64,000 nucleotides of DNA from a virus, in the IMG/VR virus record IMGVR_UViG_3300020420_001018, positions 1 through 64,000 of that record. One strand, 5' to 3'. Below, piece after piece: positions 35,993 through 58,316 of the stretch (its first letter is position 1; every line of letters begins with the position of its first letter). A program made the position numbers and the translations under genes. The notes under the pieces were generated by a model, which saw nothing but the letters and a program-made list of their open reading frames with translations, had not been told where the DNA came from and made no database searches.

Positions 35993-37357
35993 ATGACTAA
36001 CTCGAATGACGAACAGCAAAAATATTCAGTAGATAAAATAAACGAATTATCTAAAAAACTTAACCGTAATTTAGATACGGATACTTTTTGTATTCAACCT
36101 TTTATGCATCTTAGCACAACACCAAATGGTCAAATACGTTTGTGTTGTAGGTCTCAAAAAATTGCAGATGCGTCTGATACTACATTTAAAGATGTTTGGT
36201 ATAGTGATCATATGAATGAAATAAGAAAGAATATGATTGATGGTGATAAGAAAAAATTACCAGAATGTGTAAACTGCTGGTCAATGGAAAGCAAAGGTAT
36301 AATGAGTTTACGTCAAGGGCAAAACATTACGAGAATAGATAGATATTCAAAAAATGTAAGATCTTGGTTAGATTACTCAGAAGGAAATCAAGAAACATTT
36401 CCGTTTACAATTCCTGTATTAGAATTAAAACCTTCAAACTTATGTAATTTTAAATGTAGAATGTGCTGGCCTAAAGACTCAACACCATGGATGGCAGATT
36501 GGGATAGTGTAAAAGAATTTTATCCAGAAGGAGATAGAGGTCCAGTTGAAAATGATATTAAACGTTTCAATATGAATAAAAGTCCATTGATTAATTTATT
36601 TGAACAACAAAAAAACTTTATTGATGAGTTTAAAGAACTTGCTCCATCGCTAGATGAAGTAGAATTTGCAGGTGGAGAACCTTTATTAGATCCTTTGGTA
36701 TTTAAAACTTTAAAAATATTAGGTGAACAAGAAAATGTTAAAACTGAAAATATTGTTTTAAAGTATAGTACAAATCTCAGTAAGTTAAATTTTAGTAAAA
36801 AAATGGATATTATTGAATTATGGAAAAAATTTAAAAGTATAAAACTTACTATTAGTATAGATGGGGATCCAGAAAGAAACAAATACATACGTCATGGTGC
36901 AGATAGTTGGCTATTAAAAGAAAATTTAGCAATAGTAAGAAAAGAATTAGGAAACAAAGTAGAAGTAAAAGCAACAACAACAGTACAAGCATTAAATACT
37001 CCATATTTGGCAGAAACAGGACAATGGATAGTAAGAGAATTAAATTGTAATTGGCATACTTCAAGATTGCAATGGCCTAAGCACTTGCATTCTAACGTAT
37101 TACCTGTTAATATACTAGAAGAAAGTATAAAAAAAATAAAAAAAGTAAATGTAAATTTATTAAAAGATACAATGGATAGTGAAATAGAAAAATATAGGTT
37201 AGAAACGCAGTTCAATAATGTAGTTCACTGGTTAACAAGTTGTATGAATGATAACAAACACAAAAAATATTATAATGATTTTGTTAACTTTAATAAAGTT
37301 TTAGATAAAAATAGGGGAATGGCAATAGAAGATTATTGTCCGTTAGTATTAAAATGA
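35993..37357 (+). CDS. Radical SAM protein with N-terminal SPASM/twitch-like cluster motif (1 of 5)
   Basis: 454 residues. Radical SAM core with C151, C155 and C158 (CX3CX2C, CNFKCRMC), which binds the [4Fe-4S] that cleaves AdoMet, and EFAGGEPLL (GGE motif). Before the core there is an auxiliary-cluster-type set: CIQPFMHLSTTPNGQIRLCC and then CVNC. In most SPASM proteins these lie after the core, so the domain order looks permuted. Probably modifies a peptide, sugar or small molecule; substrate unknown. The AdoMet-decarboxylase-like gene overlaps its end (ATGA). Paralogues at 51632, 52731, 55820 and 57105. Confidence 0.88.
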   Translation: MTNSNDEQQKYSVDKINELSKKLNRNLDTDTFCIQPFMHLSTTPNGQIRLCCRSQKIADASDTTFKDVWYSDHMNEIRKNMIDGDKKKLPECVNCWSMESKGIMSLRQGQNITRIDRYSKNVRSWLDYSEGNQETFPFTIPVLELKPSNLCNFKCRMCWPKDSTPWMADWDSVKEFYPEGDRGPVENDIKRFNMNKSPLINLFEQQKNFIDEFKELAPSLDEVEFAGGEPLLDPLVFKTLKILGEQENVKTENIVLKYSTNLSKLNFSKKMDIIELWKKFKSIKLTISIDGDPERNKYIRHGADSWLLKENLAIVRKELGNKVEVKATTTVQALNTPYLAETGQWIVRELNCNWHTSRLQWPKHLHSNVLPVNILEESIKKIKKVNVNLLKDTMDSEIEKYRLETQFNNVVHWLTSCMNDNKHKKYYNDFVNFNKVLDKNRGMAIEDYCPLVLK

Positions 37358-41123: not shown

Positions 41124-41154
41124 AACCCCGGTAATACGAAACAATGCCGGGGTT
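41124..41154 (+). terminator. Rho-independent terminator after hsp20
   Basis: AACCCCGG / CCGGGGTT, 8-bp perfect GC-rich stem with a 15-nt loop, followed by TTCTCTT. One of the few GC-rich stems in this AT-rich DNA. Confidence 0.75.
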
Positions 41155-41166
41155 TCTCTTGAAGAC

Positions 41167-41174
41167 GATAAATA
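41167..41174 (+). promoter_or_regulatory. T4-type late promoter motif GATAAATA
   Basis: NATAAATA motif 27 nt upstream of the first gene of the MotA/ExbB-like operon. Confidence 0.4.
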
Positions 41175-41201
41175 ACTATATATTATTAGGGAAATAAGAA
41201 C

Positions 41202-41768
41202 ATGGCAATATTATCATTAAAAAAACACAGCATCTTCCTAAAGTGGTGGTGGTTCTTTACATTAATTGTAGCACTCACTGTAGTATTAATTGGATTCAAT
41301 GTACACGAAGACTTATGGTTAAAAGACAAAACAAAATTATCTTTTTTCATTCTTTTTATTTTTTATGCAATGACTTTACATTGCGGTTATGAAAGTTGGA
41401 AGTTAAGTCAACTTGCAAACGGTGACATAGAAAAATTAGAAAATTTAGACACAAGGCATGAGCCAGGTTGGTTTGCATCTGATGTATTACTTACACTTGG
41501 ATTAATTGGAACAGTGGCAGGGTTTATTTTAATGTTAGCAGGAGCATTCACAGGAATTAATATTGCTAACGTATCGTCAGTACAACAAGCATTGGCAAGT
41601 ATGGCGGTAGGTATGTCAACAGCATTGTACACGACACTTACAGGTTTGATAACAAGTACAATTTTGAAAGTTCAATATTTTAGATTGGACCAAGACTTGG
41701 AACGTTACAGAACACTACAAGCAGAAAAACTAGTTGAGAGAGTAGTAACAGAGCAGAAAGGCAACTAA
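41202..41768 (+). CDS. MotA/TolQ/ExbB-like proton-channel protein
   Basis: 188 residues with four hydrophobic segments (about 14-34, 45-64, 90-117, 128-155). The block LLTLGLIGTVAGFILMLAGAF ... ALASMAVGMSTALYTTLTGLI is the signature of the MotA/TolQ/ExbB family, whose pentamers conduct protons to drive a partner. The partner is the next gene. First of a tight operon (1-4 nt gaps) running through ClpS and SbmA. Its role in a phage is not known to me; ideas are envelope destabilisation, blocking host Tol/Exb/Mot or Zorya-like machines, or driving lysis. Confidence 0.82.
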   Translation: MAILSLKKHSIFLKWWWFFTLIVALTVVLIGFNVHEDLWLKDKTKLSFFILFIFYAMTLHCGYESWKLSQLANGDIEKLENLDTRHEPGWFASDVLLTLGLIGTVAGFILMLAGAFTGINIANVSSVQQALASMAVGMSTALYTTLTGLITSTILKVQYFRLDQDLERYRTLQAEKLVERVVTEQKGN

Positions 41769-41769
41769 C

Positions 41770-42441
41770 ATGGCAACGACACGTCATCGAAGTTACGGAT
41801 CACAAGTTGCGTTTATTGATTTGTTGTTTAATACACTCGTTGGGTTTGTATTTCTATTCATAATGGCATTTATATTAATCAATCCAATAGCAAAAAAATC
41901 AAACGTAGAAATAGTTGCAGAATATATTGTAAAAATAACATGGCCAACTGATTCTCCGGACGATATTGATTTATGGATGAGAGATCCACTAGGTAATTAC
42001 GTAGGATTCAAATCAAAAGATGTTGGATTAATGAGTTTGAATAGAGATGATTTAGGTACGTCAAATGATACAGTGTATGATCCTAAAGGAAAACCAATTA
42101 AAGTTTTTAGAAATGAAGAAATGGTTACTATCAGAGGAATAGTACCAGGAGAGTATATAGTAAACGTTCATTATTACAATAAGAAAATAGCAGTAGAAAA
42201 TAATGGTGAAAAAAATTATGTACCAATGCCAATTCAAGTACAAATTGAAAAGATAAATCCATACAATGTTGTATTTGCAAGAGAAGTATTTTTAGATCGT
42301 AAAGGTCACGAAGTAACAGTTACAAGATTTACAGTAAATGAAGATGGCTCAGTCACAGATTTTAATACCTTGTCCTATGGAATAGTTGGTAGAGTAGAAA
42401 ACACTTCTACATCAGGGCAATGGGTACCAGGAGGTTTATAG
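41770..42441 (+). CDS. MotB/TolR/ExbD-like protein
   Basis: 223 residues. A short cytoplasmic N terminus and one transmembrane segment with D17 in FIDLLFNTLVGFVFLFIMAF, matching the essential proton-carrying Asp of MotB, TolR and ExbD. The rest (about 40-223) is a periplasmic beta-rich domain (DPLGNYVGFKSKDVG, PGEYIVNVHYYN, VTVTRFTVNEDGSVTDF) that is not the OmpA-like peptidoglycan-binding domain of MotB and differs from the short ExbD domain. So the stator pair drives an unusual periplasmic module. Confidence 0.8.
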   Translation: MATTRHRSYGSQVAFIDLLFNTLVGFVFLFIMAFILINPIAKKSNVEIVAEYIVKITWPTDSPDDIDLWMRDPLGNYVGFKSKDVGLMSLNRDDLGTSNDTVYDPKGKPIKVFRNEEMVTIRGIVPGEYIVNVHYYNKKIAVENNGEKNYVPMPIQVQIEKINPYNVVFAREVFLDRKGHEVTVTRFTVNEDGSVTDFNTLSYGIVGRVENTSTSGQWVPGGL

Positions 42442-42442
42442 A

Positions 42443-43015
42443 ATGATACAAGGTCACGTATTTTTAGTTTTGTTATTAATGATGATTGGTGCCACAGTAT
42501 TATGGATCTTCATAGCATCAGCTAACACAAGATGGTTTCTAAAAGCTACACTGACAACATTAATGTTGTTTTCAATATTAAGTGCTTGGATAGGATTAAA
42601 AACAATGTATGGATATCCATATCATGCTTGGCCAGACAATGAAAAATATATTATGGTTGGGTCATATGTTGAAGAACCTGAAATAAAACAACCAGATTCT
42701 GGAGCAATATATCTTTGGTTAATCGACAACAATAGGAATATAACTGGAAAATCTTGGATAGATATTATATCAGGTGTAATTAATGGTAGACAACCTCGCG
42801 TTTATGTTATACAATATACAAGAGATATGCATGAAGAAATTGACAAGCTAGAAAAAATGAGACAAGGTAAGCCAATGCCAATTAGTTTGATTAAAAAAGA
42901 AGAGGCAGAAGAAAAAATGGAATCACATCTTGGCAACGACACAGAACGTAGGCAAGAATATATTCCATACATAATGCCAGATGCAGTAGTATTAGAAAAA
43001 AATCAACAAGGATAA
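42443..43015 (+). CDS. Third membrane protein of the ExbBD/MotAB-like operon
   Basis: 190 residues. Two N-terminal membrane segments (about 5-24 and 34-54) and a soluble domain (about 60-190) with KYIMVGSYVEEPEI, IYLWLIDNNRNITGKSW and RVYVIQYTRDMHEE; Glu/Lys-rich C-terminal part. I do not recognise the family. One-nt spacing to the ExbD-like gene and 3 nt to clpS indicate a shared mRNA and probably a shared complex. Confidence 0.7.
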   Translation: MIQGHVFLVLLLMMIGATVLWIFIASANTRWFLKATLTTLMLFSILSAWIGLKTMYGYPYHAWPDNEKYIMVGSYVEEPEIKQPDSGAIYLWLIDNNRNITGKSWIDIISGVINGRQPRVYVIQYTRDMHEEIDKLEKMRQGKPMPISLIKKEEAEEKMESHLGNDTERRQEYIPYIMPDAVVLEKNQQG

Positions 43016-51631: not shown

Positions 51632-52729
51632 ATGTATTCATACCATGACATTAAAACAGTTCACTTAGAAATTACAGCCAAGTGCCAAGCGGCTTGTTTG
51701 CAGTGTGATCGTAATATCAACGGCGGCGATTTAAATCCAAATATAAATTTAGACGAACTTTCACTAGAAGATTGTAAAAAGATATTTCAACCTGAATTTG
51801 TAAAACAACTTGACAGTTTGTTTATGTGTGGAAATTTAGGTGACCCAGTAATAGCAAAAGATTCATTAGAAGTAATGGATTATCTACGTAGTCAAAATCC
51901 AAACATATGGTTAAGCATGAATACGAATGCGGGTGCTAAGAAGCCAGAATGGTGGACAGAACTTGCAAAAGTAATAGGTCGCAAAGGTCATGTGATTTTT
52001 AGCTTTGACGGATTAAAAGATACTAATCATTTATATAGACAAAATGTTAATTGGGATATATGTATGGATTCAGCTCAAGCATTTATTGATGCTGGTGGTA
52101 GAGCAAGATGGGATTATTTAATTTTTGGACACAATCAACATCAAGTAGAAGAAGCAGAAGCATTGTCAAAACGTATGGGATTTGAAAAATTTATGAGTAA
52201 AAAAACTGGTAGATTTTTTAGTAATGTAAAAGCACAAGGTAAAGAAGAGCACCAAGGTGTAAATCGTAAAGGACAAGAAACACAAAAACTTACAAAACCA
52301 GATGAAAAGTATATAAACACAGCTCTTAAAAAAGTAGACCCATTGGTAGAAAAATATGGTTCTATGAATAACTATTATGATCAAGCACACATTAATTGCA
52401 AAGTATTAAAAGACATGAACATATATGTAAGTGCTTCTGGTCATTTAATGCCTTGCTGTTGGGTAGCAGGACAAATGTACAAGTGGTGGGAAAAGCCAGG
52501 TCAAAATCAAATTTGGAGATTTATAGAAAATGCTGGAGGAATAGATGAACTGTCAGTATTACAACATGGATTTAAAAAAGTATTAGAAGGTGAATTTTTT
52601 AATAACATAAAATCAAGTTGGAAAAAACAGTCTTGCAATGGCGGAGATGGAAAATTAAAAGTTTGTTCAGTTAAATGTGGAACAGAATTTGATCCTTTTG
52701 GTGCACAGTTTGAGGAGGTAAATACTTAA
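51632..52729 (+). CDS. Radical SAM/SPASM protein (2 of 5)
   Basis: 365 residues. The radical SAM core starts right at the N terminus with C18, C22 and C25 (AKCQAACLQC), and GNLGDP replaces the usual GGEP. The C-terminal half carries a classic SPASM-like set: INCKVLKDMNIYVSASGHLMPCCWVAG and then CNGGDGKLKVCSVKC. So, unlike the other four, its auxiliary cluster domain is after the core. Substrate unknown. It starts at the base after the methyltransferase-like stop. Confidence 0.88.
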   Translation: MYSYHDIKTVHLEITAKCQAACLQCDRNINGGDLNPNINLDELSLEDCKKIFQPEFVKQLDSLFMCGNLGDPVIAKDSLEVMDYLRSQNPNIWLSMNTNAGAKKPEWWTELAKVIGRKGHVIFSFDGLKDTNHLYRQNVNWDICMDSAQAFIDAGGRARWDYLIFGHNQHQVEEAEALSKRMGFEKFMSKKTGRFFSNVKAQGKEEHQGVNRKGQETQKLTKPDEKYINTALKKVDPLVEKYGSMNNYYDQAHINCKVLKDMNIYVSASGHLMPCCWVAGQMYKWWEKPGQNQIWRFIENAGGIDELSVLQHGFKKVLEGEFFNNIKSSWKKQSCNGGDGKLKVCSVKCGTEFDPFGAQFEEVNT

Positions 52730-52730
52730 A

Positions 52731-54197
52731 ATGACTAATAAATTACCATCAAAAACATTTTGTGCTTTACCTTGGATGCACCTTTCAACAAGACCAGACG
52801 GAAATATGAGAGTGTGTTGTACTGCCAATGCATCATCAGTTGGAGCAACCAACGATAAAAAACATGGCGGGCAGGTAGGTGTACTAAAAACTGAAAGTGG
52901 TGCTCCAGCCAATTTAAATAATTCAAATCTAATGGAAGCATGGAACAATGATTATATGAAGAATGTTCGTAAGCAGATGCTTAAAGGTGAAATGCCAGCA
53001 TCATGTTTAAAATGTTACAAAGAAGAAGCGGCCGGACATTTAAGTAAGCGTCAATGGGAGACTGATAAATGGACAAGTATATATTCAGTAGATGAAATTG
53101 TAGGTGAAACAAAAGAAGATGGTTCTATTCCACCTAAAATTAGATATTTAGATTTACGTATGGGATCCAAATGTAATCTAAAATGTATTATGTGTTCACC
53201 CCATGATTCATCATTGTGGGTAAAAGATTGGCTAGACGTATATCCTACTATTGAAAACAAAGATTTAAAACAAACAATGGGTTGGGACAATAAAGGTAAA
53301 ATGCATGGTGCAAATTATAACTGGCATAAAGACAATCCAAAGTTTTGGGATCAGTTATATGAACAGATACCTCATATGTATCAGTTGTATTTTGCAGGTG
53401 GTGAGTCCACCATTATTGAAGAACACTATACACTATTAGAAGAAGTTATTAAACGTGGGTATGCTAAACAGATTGAAGTAAGATATAATTCAAATGGTTT
53501 AGAAATGCCACCAAGATTATTTGAACTATGGAGTCATTTTAAAAAAGTAATATTTCATTATTCGGTAGATTCAATTGGTGAGATGAACGATTATATACGT
53601 TATCCTTCAAAATGGGATCACACAGTTAAACAATTTCATTTACTAGATAATACAGGAGACAACGTTGAAGTTACTGTGGCATGTGCTGTACAAGCCTTAA
53701 ACATTTATTACGTACCGGATTTTATTAAATGGAAGTTACAACAAAATTTTAAAAAAATTAATATATGGCCGTTTGGTGCAGGAATGATAAACTATCATTT
53801 TGTATATTGGCCAGGACATTTAAATGTAAAAATATTTCCACAATGGTTTAAAGATAAAGTAAAACAAAAATATGAAGAATTTTATCCTTGGTTAGAAGAA
53901 AATTGGGAAATGTCAGGAGCACCATCCAAGGAAAAATTTATGAATGCAAATTATGGTATTAAAAGATTGCAGGGTATGGTTAAGTTTATGATGAGTGAAG
54001 ACTGGTCACAACGTATGCCTCAATTTAGAGAATACATAACAAAATTTGACAAACAACGAAATACTAACTTTGCTGAAGTTTTTCCTGAAATGGCTGATTT
54101 ATTAGATGAGTCAAAAGACGCTATAGTTAAAGCAGATGCAAGTGAAAGTATTGATGAGAAATTAGAAAAAGAACTTGCAGATGGCGGAACAATCTAA
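52731..54197 (+). CDS. Radical SAM protein with N-terminal SPASM/twitch-like motif (3 of 5)
   Basis: 488 residues. The N-terminal cluster motif CALPWMHLSTRPDGNMRVCC and CLKCYKEEAAG is followed by the core motif C148, C152, C155 (CNLKCIMC) and FAGGESTI. Same layout as the proteins at 35993 and 57105. A long C-terminal helical region ends in a charged tail that overlaps the next gene. Together with its paralogues it may act in sequence on one product. Confidence 0.88.
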   Translation: MTNKLPSKTFCALPWMHLSTRPDGNMRVCCTANASSVGATNDKKHGGQVGVLKTESGAPANLNNSNLMEAWNNDYMKNVRKQMLKGEMPASCLKCYKEEAAGHLSKRQWETDKWTSIYSVDEIVGETKEDGSIPPKIRYLDLRMGSKCNLKCIMCSPHDSSLWVKDWLDVYPTIENKDLKQTMGWDNKGKMHGANYNWHKDNPKFWDQLYEQIPHMYQLYFAGGESTIIEEHYTLLEEVIKRGYAKQIEVRYNSNGLEMPPRLFELWSHFKKVIFHYSVDSIGEMNDYIRYPSKWDHTVKQFHLLDNTGDNVEVTVACAVQALNIYYVPDFIKWKLQQNFKKINIWPFGAGMINYHFVYWPGHLNVKIFPQWFKDKVKQKYEEFYPWLEENWEMSGAPSKEKFMNANYGIKRLQGMVKFMMSEDWSQRMPQFREYITKFDKQRNTNFAEVFPEMADLLDESKDAIVKADASESIDEKLEKELADGGTI

Positions 54198-54738
54198 ATT
54201 AGAAAAAAAATGGCAAGACATGAAAGATCATGTTACAAAGCCACGACCAGAACTTGACGGCATGGCTATTTGCCCATTTGCAAAAATGGGATTTAAACGT
54301 AACGAAATCGATGTAGTTTGGACAAAGGGTGACTTGTTTGAACAAGCTAATTCAAAGATGAAAAAATATCCAAAAGGAAAACAATTAGTAATGCTAATGG
54401 CAGATCCAAAAGATTATACATTAGAACAACTTGAACAATGGGAAAATGATAATCAAAAAAACGCAGTGGAAAAAGATTTATACATTTACACGTCTTACAA
54501 ATCAGAAGATAAGCAAAAATCAGTTGGCACTGAAAATGGTCCAGTAGCTGGTTTAGGATCAGGAAATAAAGGGTTAGCAATTATACAATTACAAGTATTG
54601 AGTGATTTAAATGAAAAATCAGAATGGGTACATCAAAACACAAAGTATTATGATAAATGGAATAAAAAATATTATGATGGAATTGTTAAAAGAAGATATC
54701 GTGATAGTGATTATGACAGTAAGGAGTTTGAAAAATAA
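54181..54738 (+). CDS. Hypothetical protein, DUF1415-like hint
   Basis: 185 residues from ATG 54181 (a TTG at 54175 precedes it). MAICPFAKMGFKRNEIDVVW near residue 20 resembles the CPFA motif of the DUF1415 family; the rest is helical and Lys-rich. No catalytic motif is evident. It sits between a radical SAM gene and the amidinotransferase, overlapping both, so it should belong to the same pathway or complex. Confidence 0.6.
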   Translation: MAEQSKLEKKWQDMKDHVTKPRPELDGMAICPFAKMGFKRNEIDVVWTKGDLFEQANSKMKKYPKGKQLVMLMADPKDYTLEQLEQWENDNQKNAVEKDLYIYTSYKSEDKQKSVGTENGPVAGLGSGNKGLAIIQLQVLSDLNEKSEWVHQNTKYYDKWNKKYYDGIVKRRYRDSDYDSKEFEK

Positions 54739-55820
54739 TGGTTAATAATTATAGTGAATTTTTTAGTGATAAACCTTTGGTGCAAACATATTCAGAGTTT
54801 CAACCTTTAGAAGAAGTTATTGTTGGAACACCATATAGTCCTGACACGTTTGATCACAGCGATAAGTTTAGCCAAGAAGCTAAAGATTTATTAAAAAGAG
54901 TATTAACAGAAACAGCAGAAGATTTAGAAGTACTTGTTGATATTTTAAATAAAGAAAACGTGATTGTGCAAAGACCAAAGCCATTACACAATCCTTTACA
55001 AAAATATACAGTAGGGCAATTTGAAATAGAATATATAAATCAACCTTTACAACCAAGAGACTTAATTGGTTTCTTTGGTAATAAAATTATAGAAGCATAT
55101 ACAAAAGATACTTCAAGGTACTTAGAAACTTTATGTTCCAGAGATATATTAAAAGAATATTTCATGTATGGATCAGAATGGATATCTATGCCTCAGCCAC
55201 AATTGAATCAAAAAACATATCATGATTATTATCGAAATGGTGAAGTATTGTTTCATTCTGCAAATTTAATTAAATGTGGAAAAGATATATTTCATTCACA
55301 ATCTTATCAAAAAGATCCTACAAAAGGCAAAGGTACAGAGCAAGGACTTGCATGGTACAAACAACAACTACCTGAATTTAAATTTAATGAAGTTCCAGTA
55401 GGTGGGCATGTCGACGGAAAAATTGCATTAATCAAGCCTGGCTTGTTATTAACATGGAAGCCAGAATGGTTACCAGAAAAATTAAAGTCGTGGGATTGTA
55501 TTGTTGCCAAGTCTGGTACAAAATTTCCAGAAGATTTTAAAACAACACGTAAGCAAAGATTTTACAAAGATTACATTGAACGTTGGTTATCACATTGGAT
55601 TGGTTATGTAGATGAAACTGTATTTGATGTTAATGTATTAAGTATATCTGAAGATAAAGTTATTTGCACCGGAACAGATAAAGAAGTATTTGCACAGTTA
55701 GAAAAACATGGAGTTACTCCAATCTATTGGAAATTTAGGCATCAATATTTTTGGGATGGTGGAGTACATTGTTTAACATCAGATGTAAGGCGTAAAGGAA
55801 AACAGGAAAATTATTTTTAA
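54738..55820 (+). CDS. Amidinotransferase-family enzyme
   Basis: 360 residues of the glycine amidinotransferase/arginine-deiminase fold. Visible: QPLEEVIVGTP near residue 22, QPLQPRDLIGFFGN (family PRD), catalytic H224 in VGGHVDGKIALI and nucleophile C345 in GGVHCLTSDVRR. Such enzymes move an amidino group from arginine to an amine, as in creatine and many natural-product pathways, or hydrolyse guanidines. Amid radical SAM genes it points to a small-molecule or peptide product. Overlaps neighbours on both sides by 1 nt. Confidence 0.85.
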   Translation: MVNNYSEFFSDKPLVQTYSEFQPLEEVIVGTPYSPDTFDHSDKFSQEAKDLLKRVLTETAEDLEVLVDILNKENVIVQRPKPLHNPLQKYTVGQFEIEYINQPLQPRDLIGFFGNKIIEAYTKDTSRYLETLCSRDILKEYFMYGSEWISMPQPQLNQKTYHDYYRNGEVLFHSANLIKCGKDIFHSQSYQKDPTKGKGTEQGLAWYKQQLPEFKFNEVPVGGHVDGKIALIKPGLLLTWKPEWLPEKLKSWDCIVAKSGTKFPEDFKTTRKQRFYKDYIERWLSHWIGYVDETVFDVNVLSISEDKVICTGTDKEVFAQLEKHGVTPIYWKFRHQYFWDGGVHCLTSDVRRKGKQENYF

Positions 55821-57118
55821 TGATTAATAATGAGTATTTTGATAGAGATTGGGATTGGCATAAAACAATTAATAAAAAATGTTTAGCGCCATGGCATAGT
55901 CTTACGATTGATTGGACTGGCAATGTTTATGCTGATGCAGTTGCAACTGAACCGTATGGCAATCTATATGAAAATACTTTATCAGAAATGTGGCGTTTAG
56001 ATAAAGCAGTTAGTTTAAGAAATAGTTGGAATAATGATAAATTTGATAATCCAATATGTAAAAAGTGTTTTAAAAAAGAAGAAACAAGTGGCAGTTCTAG
56101 ACGACAGTATTTTTACAGTAATTTTGAACCAGATCAAATTAAACAAGCAACGTACAAAGTAAATTCTCAACCAGACATTTGGTATTTAGAAATCAATCCA
56201 TCAAACAAATGCAATTTAAAATGTAGAATGTGTTCTGGTTTAATTTCAAGCACTTGGATAAAAGATGAAATACAGTTAAAACAAAAATTTCCAAATTGGA
56301 TGCCAGATAGAGAAATAGGTCAATATCAAAAATTAGAATTTGATATTATTAAAAATTTATTAGATAAAAAGGAGCATTTTAAAAATTTACAATTTTTAAA
56401 AATTACAGGCGGTGAGCCTTTAATGGAAGAACAAAATTATCAAATAATGGAACAATTTATTAAATGGGATATTGCCAAAGATGTTATACTTGATGTCAAT
56501 ACAAATGGTACAGTGTTTAACGATAGATTGCACGATATTGCAAAAAATTTTAAAATGGTTAAACTACATATTAGTATTGAAGGCACCGGAGATTTATATC
56601 AATACATCAGAGGCGGTGATAACTTTACGATTCAACAACTAGAAAGCAATATTAGAAATTTTAATAAGCTACAAAACACAATGATAATTTATACTGTGAC
56701 AATACAAGCATATAATATTTTTGATATTGCAAATATATGGAAATGGTATTTAAAAATAAGAAAGCCAACAAATGAAATATATTTTAAAAACGTAGTTGTA
56801 AATCCAAGGTATTTAAGTTTCCATGTCTTACCTAATAGTATTAAACAAAAAGCAGTAGAAATGCTATTGCAAGAAAAGTTGCCATTAGATGATTGGTGGC
56901 AATATAGCAAACACGAAAAAGCACAAGGTAGTATTGGTTTTAAAAATATAATTGAAGGACTTAAAAATGATAATTACTATAGTAAAGAGGAAAGAAATAA
57001 GTTTTTAAAAGAGTTTGTGCAATTTACAAATGATCTAGATAATATTAGAAACACTAGTATAAAAGAAATTGTACCAGAGCTAAAAGAACTATTTGAAAAA
57101 AAGTATGAAACAGTCTAA
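55820..57118 (+). CDS. Radical SAM protein with altered N-terminal motif (4 of 5)
   Basis: 432 residues. Core C131, C135, C138 (CNLKCRMC) with KITGGEPLM. The N-terminal motif starts CLAPWHSLTIDWTGNVYADA, so the CC pair found in the paralogues is missing, though CKKCFKKEETSG follows. The auxiliary cluster may be incomplete or bound differently. Overlaps the next paralogue by 14 nt. Confidence 0.87.
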   Translation: MINNEYFDRDWDWHKTINKKCLAPWHSLTIDWTGNVYADAVATEPYGNLYENTLSEMWRLDKAVSLRNSWNNDKFDNPICKKCFKKEETSGSSRRQYFYSNFEPDQIKQATYKVNSQPDIWYLEINPSNKCNLKCRMCSGLISSTWIKDEIQLKQKFPNWMPDREIGQYQKLEFDIIKNLLDKKEHFKNLQFLKITGGEPLMEEQNYQIMEQFIKWDIAKDVILDVNTNGTVFNDRLHDIAKNFKMVKLHISIEGTGDLYQYIRGGDNFTIQQLESNIRNFNKLQNTMIIYTVTIQAYNIFDIANIWKWYLKIRKPTNEIYFKNVVVNPRYLSFHVLPNSIKQKAVEMLLQEKLPLDDWWQYSKHEKAQGSIGFKNIIEGLKNDNYYSKEERNKFLKEFVQFTNDLDNIRNTSIKEIVPELKELFEKKYETV

Positions 57119-58316
57119 TACATTTTGTATATTACCATGGATGCATGTTGCTACAAATTCAAGCGGTAATTATCGTGTATGCTGTAATTCAACTCCTGGC
57201 GAAAACTTTATTACAGATGAATCAGGAACTCCTTACAAAATTTATAAAAATTCTCCAGATGAAATTTGGAATACAAAAGTATATAAAGATTTACGTAAGG
57301 ATTTACTAAATGGTAAAAAGCCAAAAATGTGTGTAAGATGTTGGAGAGAAGAAGCAACTGGTATAAAATCTGCACGTGAAGGATTCAATGAATCTTACAA
57401 AGATCACATTGAAGAAGCAATAACAAGTACTAAAGAAGATGGGTCAGCACCAGTAAAAGGTGTTTATGTTGATTTACGTTTAGGCAATTTATGTAATTTA
57501 AAATGTAGAATGTGTAATCCATGGGCATCAAATCAATGGGTAGAAGAATGGAATACAAAAACGTCATATGATGGATCAACAATTGATCAACAAGAACGTG
57601 ATAGATTAACACATATGAATTGGCCAACCAATGAAAAGACTTGGGAAAATTTAATGCCGATCATTGATACAGTAGAAGAAATATACTTAACAGGAGGAGA
57701 ACCAACTCTTGCACTCGAACAGTATAAGCTATTTGATCGTTGTATTGAATTAAACAAAGCAAAAGATATCATTTTAAAATACAACACAAATTTAACTAAC
57801 ATTCCGCCCAAAATGATTGACTATTGGAAACACTTTAAAAAAATTAAAATAAATGCTTCTATTGATGGTTACGATCAGCTTAACAGATATATTAGATATC
57901 CAACTAATTGGAAATCAGTAAACAAAAATTTATCAGCATTTGCTGAAATGGAAAAACAAGGCAAGATGAGAGTACAGGTTCATTCTACAGTACAAATATA
58001 CAACGTACTAGATTTAAATGAATTGTTTGAATATACCATGCAATTTGGATATTTTCCATATCTAAACATACTTGATCATCCTGATTATTTAAATGTTAGG
58101 GTGTTACCACAAAATTTAAAACAAGAAGCGGCGAAACGTTTACAACCTTGGATTAAACAAGATAAAGTTGAAGGACTTATAAATTACATGATGGCAGAAG
58201 ATTGGACAAAACATACAGATAAGTTTGTCGAATACACGACAGAGATAGATAAATCAAGAAACCAATCATTAGAAAAAGTTGCGCCTTCATTAAAAGAAGT
58301 TCTTGACAATATATAG
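57105..58316 (+). CDS. Radical SAM protein with N-terminal SPASM/twitch-like motif (5 of 5)
   Basis: 403 residues from ATG 57105 (TTG 57093 is an upstream alternative). CILPWMHVATNSSGNYRVCC and CVRCWREEATG, then the core C130, C134, C137 (CNLKCRMC) and YLTGGEPTL. Same architecture as the protein at 52731. It is the last gene of the island; a promoter for a different unit lies at its end. Confidence 0.88.
   Translation: MKQSNTFCILPWMHVATNSSGNYRVCCNSTPGENFITDESGTPYKIYKNSPDEIWNTKVYKDLRKDLLNGKKPKMCVRCWREEATGIKSAREGFNESYKDHIEEAITSTKEDGSAPVKGVYVDLRLGNLCNLKCRMCNPWASNQWVEEWNTKTSYDGSTIDQQERDRLTHMNWPTNEKTWENLMPIIDTVEEIYLTGGEPTLALEQYKLFDRCIELNKAKDIILKYNTNLTNIPPKMIDYWKHFKKIKINASIDGYDQLNRYIRYPTNWKSVNKNLSAFAEMEKQGKMRVQVHSTVQIYNVLDLNELFEYTMQFGYFPYLNILDHPDYLNVRVLPQNLKQEAAKRLQPWIKQDKVEGLINYMMAEDWTKHTDKFVEYTTEIDKSRNQSLEKVAPSLKEVLDNI

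Follow-up and report, generated by a model that had tools for sequence, protein, structure and literature searches.

We analysed a 64,000-nt stretch of viral DNA, positions 1-64,000 of the IMG/VR virus contig IMGVR_UViG_3300020420_001018 (the window), and confirmed three plus-strand open reading frames at 41202-43015, each one base from the next and the set flanked by hsp20 and clpS. We refer to these genes as A, B, and C, or the trio (Table 1); their immediate neighbors are hsp20, clpS, and sbmA. Genes for Suf and Clp proteins, cytochrome b, and IF3 had raised the suspicion of bacterial-chromosome contamination, which was ruled out because the record is viral and holds many T4-like genes, including helicases and ribonucleotide reductase. 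Between 28600 and 49759, the window carries an unusual load of host-like genes for a T4-like phage: L11, ClpX, IF3, SufB, SufD, Hsp20, ClpS, SbmA/BacA, Nfu, endonuclease III, cytochrome b, a SufT-like Fe-S assembly protein, aldehyde dehydrogenase, and ClpP. A cluster of several radical-SAM-like proteins, recognized by eye from CNLxCxMC motifs, is encoded at 35993-37357 and 51632-58316, and a glucosaminidase-family peptidoglycan hydrolase encoded at 30-629 is a possible endolysin of this phage.

Table 1. Features at the trio locus, in window coordinates
Feature	Position	Strand	Basis
Terminator-like hairpin (AACCCCGG...CCGGGGTT, then TCTCTT)	41124..41160	+	Sequence; between hsp20 and the trio
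T4-type late promoter-like box ACGATAAATAACT	41165..41177	+	ATAAATA at 41168; gene A starts 34 bases downstream
Gene A, MotA/TolQ/ExbB family, four helices, 188 aa	41202..41768	+	PF01618, PDB profile matches, conservation
Gene B, MotB/ExbD-like partner, 223 aa	41770..42441	+	D17, AlphaFold2 model, DUF2135 profile match
Gene C, third protein, two helices, 190 aa	42443..43015	+	AlphaFold2 model, loop charge, lysozyme fusions in relatives

The window A protein matched the Pfam family PF01618 (MotA_ExbB) with 28.2 bits against a gathering threshold of 22.9 (E 1.7e-6). The A proteins of phages N3_19 and I1_18 also scored above gathering, those of RL38J1 and of Azospirillum fell slightly under it, and 16-3 p038 had no PF01618 match, yet was profile-related to the window A family. 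When A-family profiles were compared with the PDB, the matches were mainly to MotA, ZorA, TolQ, and ExbB; the top NCBIfam and PADLOC matches of window A were ZorA models. Residues G100, G103, T104, G107, T145, and G148 are invariant in all 77 A proteins compared, and T104 and T145 align with threonines in two motifs of a MotA, GMIGT and ITTLYG.

The B protein was modeled by AlphaFold2 (mean pLDDT 86) as one helix at residues 10-37 followed by a beta-sandwich at 51-199. D17 is invariant in 82 of 82 relatives and, in every one of them, is the sole charge within the membrane helix (residues 15-37 are otherwise uncharged). Profile-profile comparison of the outer domain with DUF2135 sequences, the assignment of which was checked, gave a probability of 98.8 and an E value of 1.3e-16; B itself missed the PF09906 (DUF2135) cut-off, with a best single-member E of 0.043. 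An OmpA-like peptidoglycan-binding domain, as in MotB, was looked for and found no Pfam match, ExbD/TolR was matched neither in Pfam or NCBIfam nor among the listed fold matches, and no family in Pfam, NCBIfam, PHROGs, or PADLOC rose above cut-off. Sequence searches of the PDB with B returned nothing meaningful, and the fold search returned only 2qng (E 3e-5, TM 0.41/0.52) and weak DUF4425 matches. By profile comparison, the predicted beta-sandwich is a distant relative of DUF2135 and not a peptidoglycan anchor. Acidic residues D65, D67, D93, D94, D100, and E117 are invariant in this domain; that they bind a metal would be a guess.

For C, AlphaFold2 (mean pLDDT 76) predicted a small alpha/beta domain in addition to helices at 2-25 and 31-55. 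The loop that joins these helices carries a strong positive charge, with 118 Lys or Arg against 14 Asp or Glu residues summed over 81 relatives, and because of this charge pattern, together with the model, we infer that the C-terminal domain lies in the periplasm. No family was found for C in Pfam, NCBIfam, PHROGs, or PADLOC, PDB sequence searches gave nothing meaningful, and the fold search gave no significant match.

Motors of the stator class drive flagella, transport at the outer membrane, envelope maintenance, and one defense system. In Vibrio, T158 and T186 of PomA and D24 of PomB are needed for ion flow (PMC6677748), and T104 and T145 of A and D17 of B match these positions. It is highly probable from such residue and profile matches that the A and B proteins together make up a stator of the MotA/TolQ/ExbB type, driven by ions, whose predicted ion path would comprise D17 of B and the threonines of A. 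The preliminary description of this locus had proposed a four-helix MotA/ExbB-like protein, a partner with a key Asp in its single helix and a beta-rich outer domain, and a two-helix third membrane protein, and had seen neither an OmpA-like nor a TonB-like partner. Our results agree on each count, with no such partner found near the window trio, and the Asp whose loss in homologs was to speak against a stator pair has been kept throughout.

The description had also suggested a search for the trio in other phages, which proved productive. Cultured phages with a B relative account for 27 records, all from Rhizobium or Sinorhizobium phages, where these proteins are annotated as hypothetical or by bare gene numbers. 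Eight of these regions were inspected, and each has an A-like gene upstream of B and a C-like gene downstream, sometimes with small open reading frames in between. Three scans with family alignments found 305, 111, and 416 viral contigs encoding a B relative, and the best 80 contigs of each were kept. Among the 82 loci analyzed, A precedes B in 77 and C follows B in 80; nearly all trios are tightly packed on one strand, and several of the exceptions are contig edges. Profile comparison linked the A and C proteins of rhizobial phages and Azospirillum to the window family. Because it is conserved over hundreds of contigs, the trio is more than a chance arrangement, and the one-off phage version implied at the outset has given way to a widespread set that is also cellular.

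The surroundings of the trio vary. Its next commonest neighbor is a ClpP-like gene (27 of 82 loci), and a PHROG scan of 118 neighbor proteins revealed no functional partner common to the loci. The T4-like Rhizobium phages have the trio amid replication genes, with a late sigma factor nearby. A gene for an FTR1-family iron permease is found near the trio in close relatives (L002, 8626-9276; L003, 4996-5646), and one for a trypsin-like protease lies just upstream of it in L008 (4277-5176), L014 (3132-3842), L013 (3655-4302), and L152, and lies downstream in L007 (6460-7566). A survey of Bacteroidota yielded a single full-length match, the fragment behind L007, and was set aside; the weak remaining matches are short and mostly within long proteins, and those that were checked carry a DUF2135 domain.

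The trio also occurs in cells. A megaplasmid of Azospirillum brasilense (NZ_CP059450.1) carries it in full twice, 24 kb apart (L096 and L119, at 723 kb and 748 kb), adjoining yajQ and purU (gene names assigned by eye, the record being unannotated), and the B gene was found in seven such records. Since Azospirillum carries the trio as ordinary genes, it is probably an envelope machine of Alphaproteobacteria that the phages have adapted or have in common with them. These cellular copies point to upkeep of the envelope as the original function, with phages making use of it afterward, and their position beside yajQ and purU argues against a purely lytic origin.

Upstream of gene A, the window has a hairpin similar to those ahead of the trio in L016, L017, and L026, followed by the T4-type late box. 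T4-type late promoters carry this motif and are expected just before genes. ATAAATA occurs 19 times on the gene-bearing plus strand of the window and never on the minus strand, mostly 15-60 bases ahead of a gene start, and so makes a clean T4-type late promoter map. In the nearest relatives (L016-L019 and L026), GATAAATA is found at -33 to -53. Late-type boxes also precede nonlysis genes, such as nrdB and cytochrome b. Because T4-like Rhizobium phages lack the T4-type box ahead of A, we argue for a presumptive late timing of the trio in the window group only.

The connection to lysis comes from relatives of the window trio. In nine dereplicated contigs (L035, L036, L050, L054, L057, L078, L088, L201, and L202; also in L052 and L062), the reading frame of C carries on without a break into a GH24 phage lysozyme; for L057, whose contig ends within the C gene, the lysozyme is known only from a translated match at the fusion position. 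The three fusions tested covered the whole GH24 profile (Pfam E 1e-47 to 1e-50). On a quick tree of B, the fusions form one group with a support of 98 that encloses two unfused members, and possibly they go back to one event. They are not one assembly error, because they come from several independent samples. In the sister clade of the window and its close kin (L021-L025), genes for a GH108 endolysin and for Rz-like and Rz1-like spanins lie directly upstream of the trio. An M15 peptidase gene lies less than 0.9 kb from the trio in a third clade (L033, L074, L219), and L059 has a GH24 lysozyme gene one gene downstream of C. Several rhizobial siphophages have a same-strand GH24 lysozyme gene 2-6 kb upstream of the trio; ∼18 kb separate the trio from the lysozyme gene of phage N3_19. 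All lysis genes detected near the trio share its strand, and at least 19 of 119 dereplicated loci have one within 3.5 kb, a count from six queries with no background rate alongside. The window trio itself has no adjoining peptidoglycan hydrolase, the sole recognized one being the glucosaminidase ∼40 kb away. A link to endolysin or spanin genes, by fusion or by gene order, was seen in the relatives and is absent in the window itself.

We read the trio as an ion-driven envelope machine of late infection, with lysis its most likely setting, and put a probability of about 0.5 on this reading. That it acts late and on the envelope is likely; of the single explanations, lysis is the best, because the C-lysozyme fusion is otherwise hard to account for. 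In the proposed mechanism, C would join the stator as a constant third subunit, anchored by its two helices, and the A-B-C complex would draw on the gradient of protons or sodium ions for its action on the cell envelope. Late in infection, the complex may deliver, position, or gate a peptidoglycan-degrading enzyme, or loosen the envelope for it, a role we propose because of the lysozyme fusions, the lysis-cassette neighbors, and the late promoter. Driving lysis was among the functions first suggested for this locus; it gains from the fusions, from the endolysin/Rz/Rz1 neighborhood in the sister clade, and from the late promoter, and it loses from the lack of a hydrolase next to the window trio. 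The placement in the replication region of some phages, the distant lysozymes of others, and the cellular copies near yajQ/purU also count against lysis, as do the low count of 19 in 119 loci, the confinement of the fusion to one group, and the late-type boxes ahead of nonlysis genes.

Some of these same observations would fit a stator that guards the envelope, keeping the outer membrane and cell wall intact or blocking superinfection as a substitute for Tol-Pal, with the nearby hydrolases incidental. The Azospirillum trios resemble housekeeping genes, T4-like Rhizobium phages keep theirs in the replication region, and the trypsin-like protease encoded just upstream in rhizobial siphophages and L152 is a possible partner in envelope quality control. 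A guard predicts neither the fusion of C to lysozyme nor a position behind endolysin, Rz, and Rz1, and we hold it to be unlikely, although it is the strongest of the alternatives. A gradient-gated lysis clock, in which A and B would serve as sensors of the membrane gradient, keeping C and its hydrolase inactive until a holin collapses that gradient, without mechanical work, draws on the same data as the preferred lytic machine. SAR endolysins are a precedent, being membrane-tethered lysozymes that are freed by depolarization; C, however, has two helices and not one releasable helix, and a clock of this kind seems improbable.

We give a similarly low weight to nutrient import, by which the trio, as an auxiliary Ton-like energizer, would help the infected cell to take up iron, peptides, or other solutes. 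Of 82 loci, 9 have an SbmA/BacA transporter gene next to the trio and 6 have an FTR1 iron permease gene, the window clade has Fe-S assembly genes, and the single ExbB of Lentisphaerae phages is interpreted along such lines, as serving polysaccharide transport (PMC11361711). Transporter and iron neighbors are limited to some clades, however, whereas the trio is everywhere; moreover, a TonB-like protein is missing, and a fusion with lysozyme would not be expected. Most doubtful of all is an anti-defense decoy that poisons the host's ZorAB or another host stator, a possibility raised in the preliminary description. The A protein does score against ZorA models, as membership in the superfamily common to both predicts, but it matches TolQ, ExbB, and MotA too. 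Zorya defense needs both the long cytoplasmic extension of ZorA and the peptidoglycan-binding domain of ZorB (PMC11890865), whereas A, at 188 aa, has no long cytoplasmic tail, B has no peptidoglycan-binding domain, and the trio is phage-borne. ZorC/ZorD or ZorE effector genes are absent among the immediate window neighbors, cellular trios exist, and conservation extends to the complete ion path, although a decoy could do without it; the idea of jamming ZorAB is unsupported.

A conserved three-gene stator in hundreds of unrelated phages, its genes annotated as hypothetical where the phage has been cultured, would extend these motors by a branch that viruses carry and that has a new third subunit. 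A role of the trio in lysis would change the accepted view, with its three parts, of how Gram-negative hosts are opened by phages. More tentatively, an ion motor may join holin, endolysin, and spanin as an additional type of lysis component in many phages of Alphaproteobacteria and their marine relatives; as such, it would turn the gradient into envelope breakage or controlled delivery of lysozyme. The cultured Rhizobium phages that carry the trio make these proposals directly testable.

Set beside known systems, the trio resembles the single Lentisphaerae phage ExbB in being a phage-encoded member of the superfamily, and the part of that account accessible to us describes no trio (PMC11361711). 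With the 5:2 ion-driven stators (MotA/TolQ/ExbB with MotB/TolR/ExbD), it shares a four-helix A protein with GxxGTxxG and TTxxG motifs and, in a gene adjoining A, a single-helix B protein with a lone Asp. It differs from them in the DUF2135-like beta-sandwich of B, which takes the place of an OmpA-like or TolR/ExbD domain, in the constant two-helix C protein, and in having been met mostly in phages in this analysis. Like the third components TolA and TonB, C is a third membrane protein that probably reaches into the periplasm, and some C proteins have Gly/Lys-rich stretches ahead of a short conserved C-terminal motif; unlike them, C has two helices, matches no TonB/TolA domain, and is fused to lysozyme in one group. 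We know of no stator-type motor in any described phage lysis cassette, and none was found in the literature searched, nor was a description of the trio. In several clades, the trio lies within, or is fused to, genes of the kind that make up the lysis cassettes of Gram-negative phages, with their endolysins, Rz/Rz1 spanins, and SAR endolysins.
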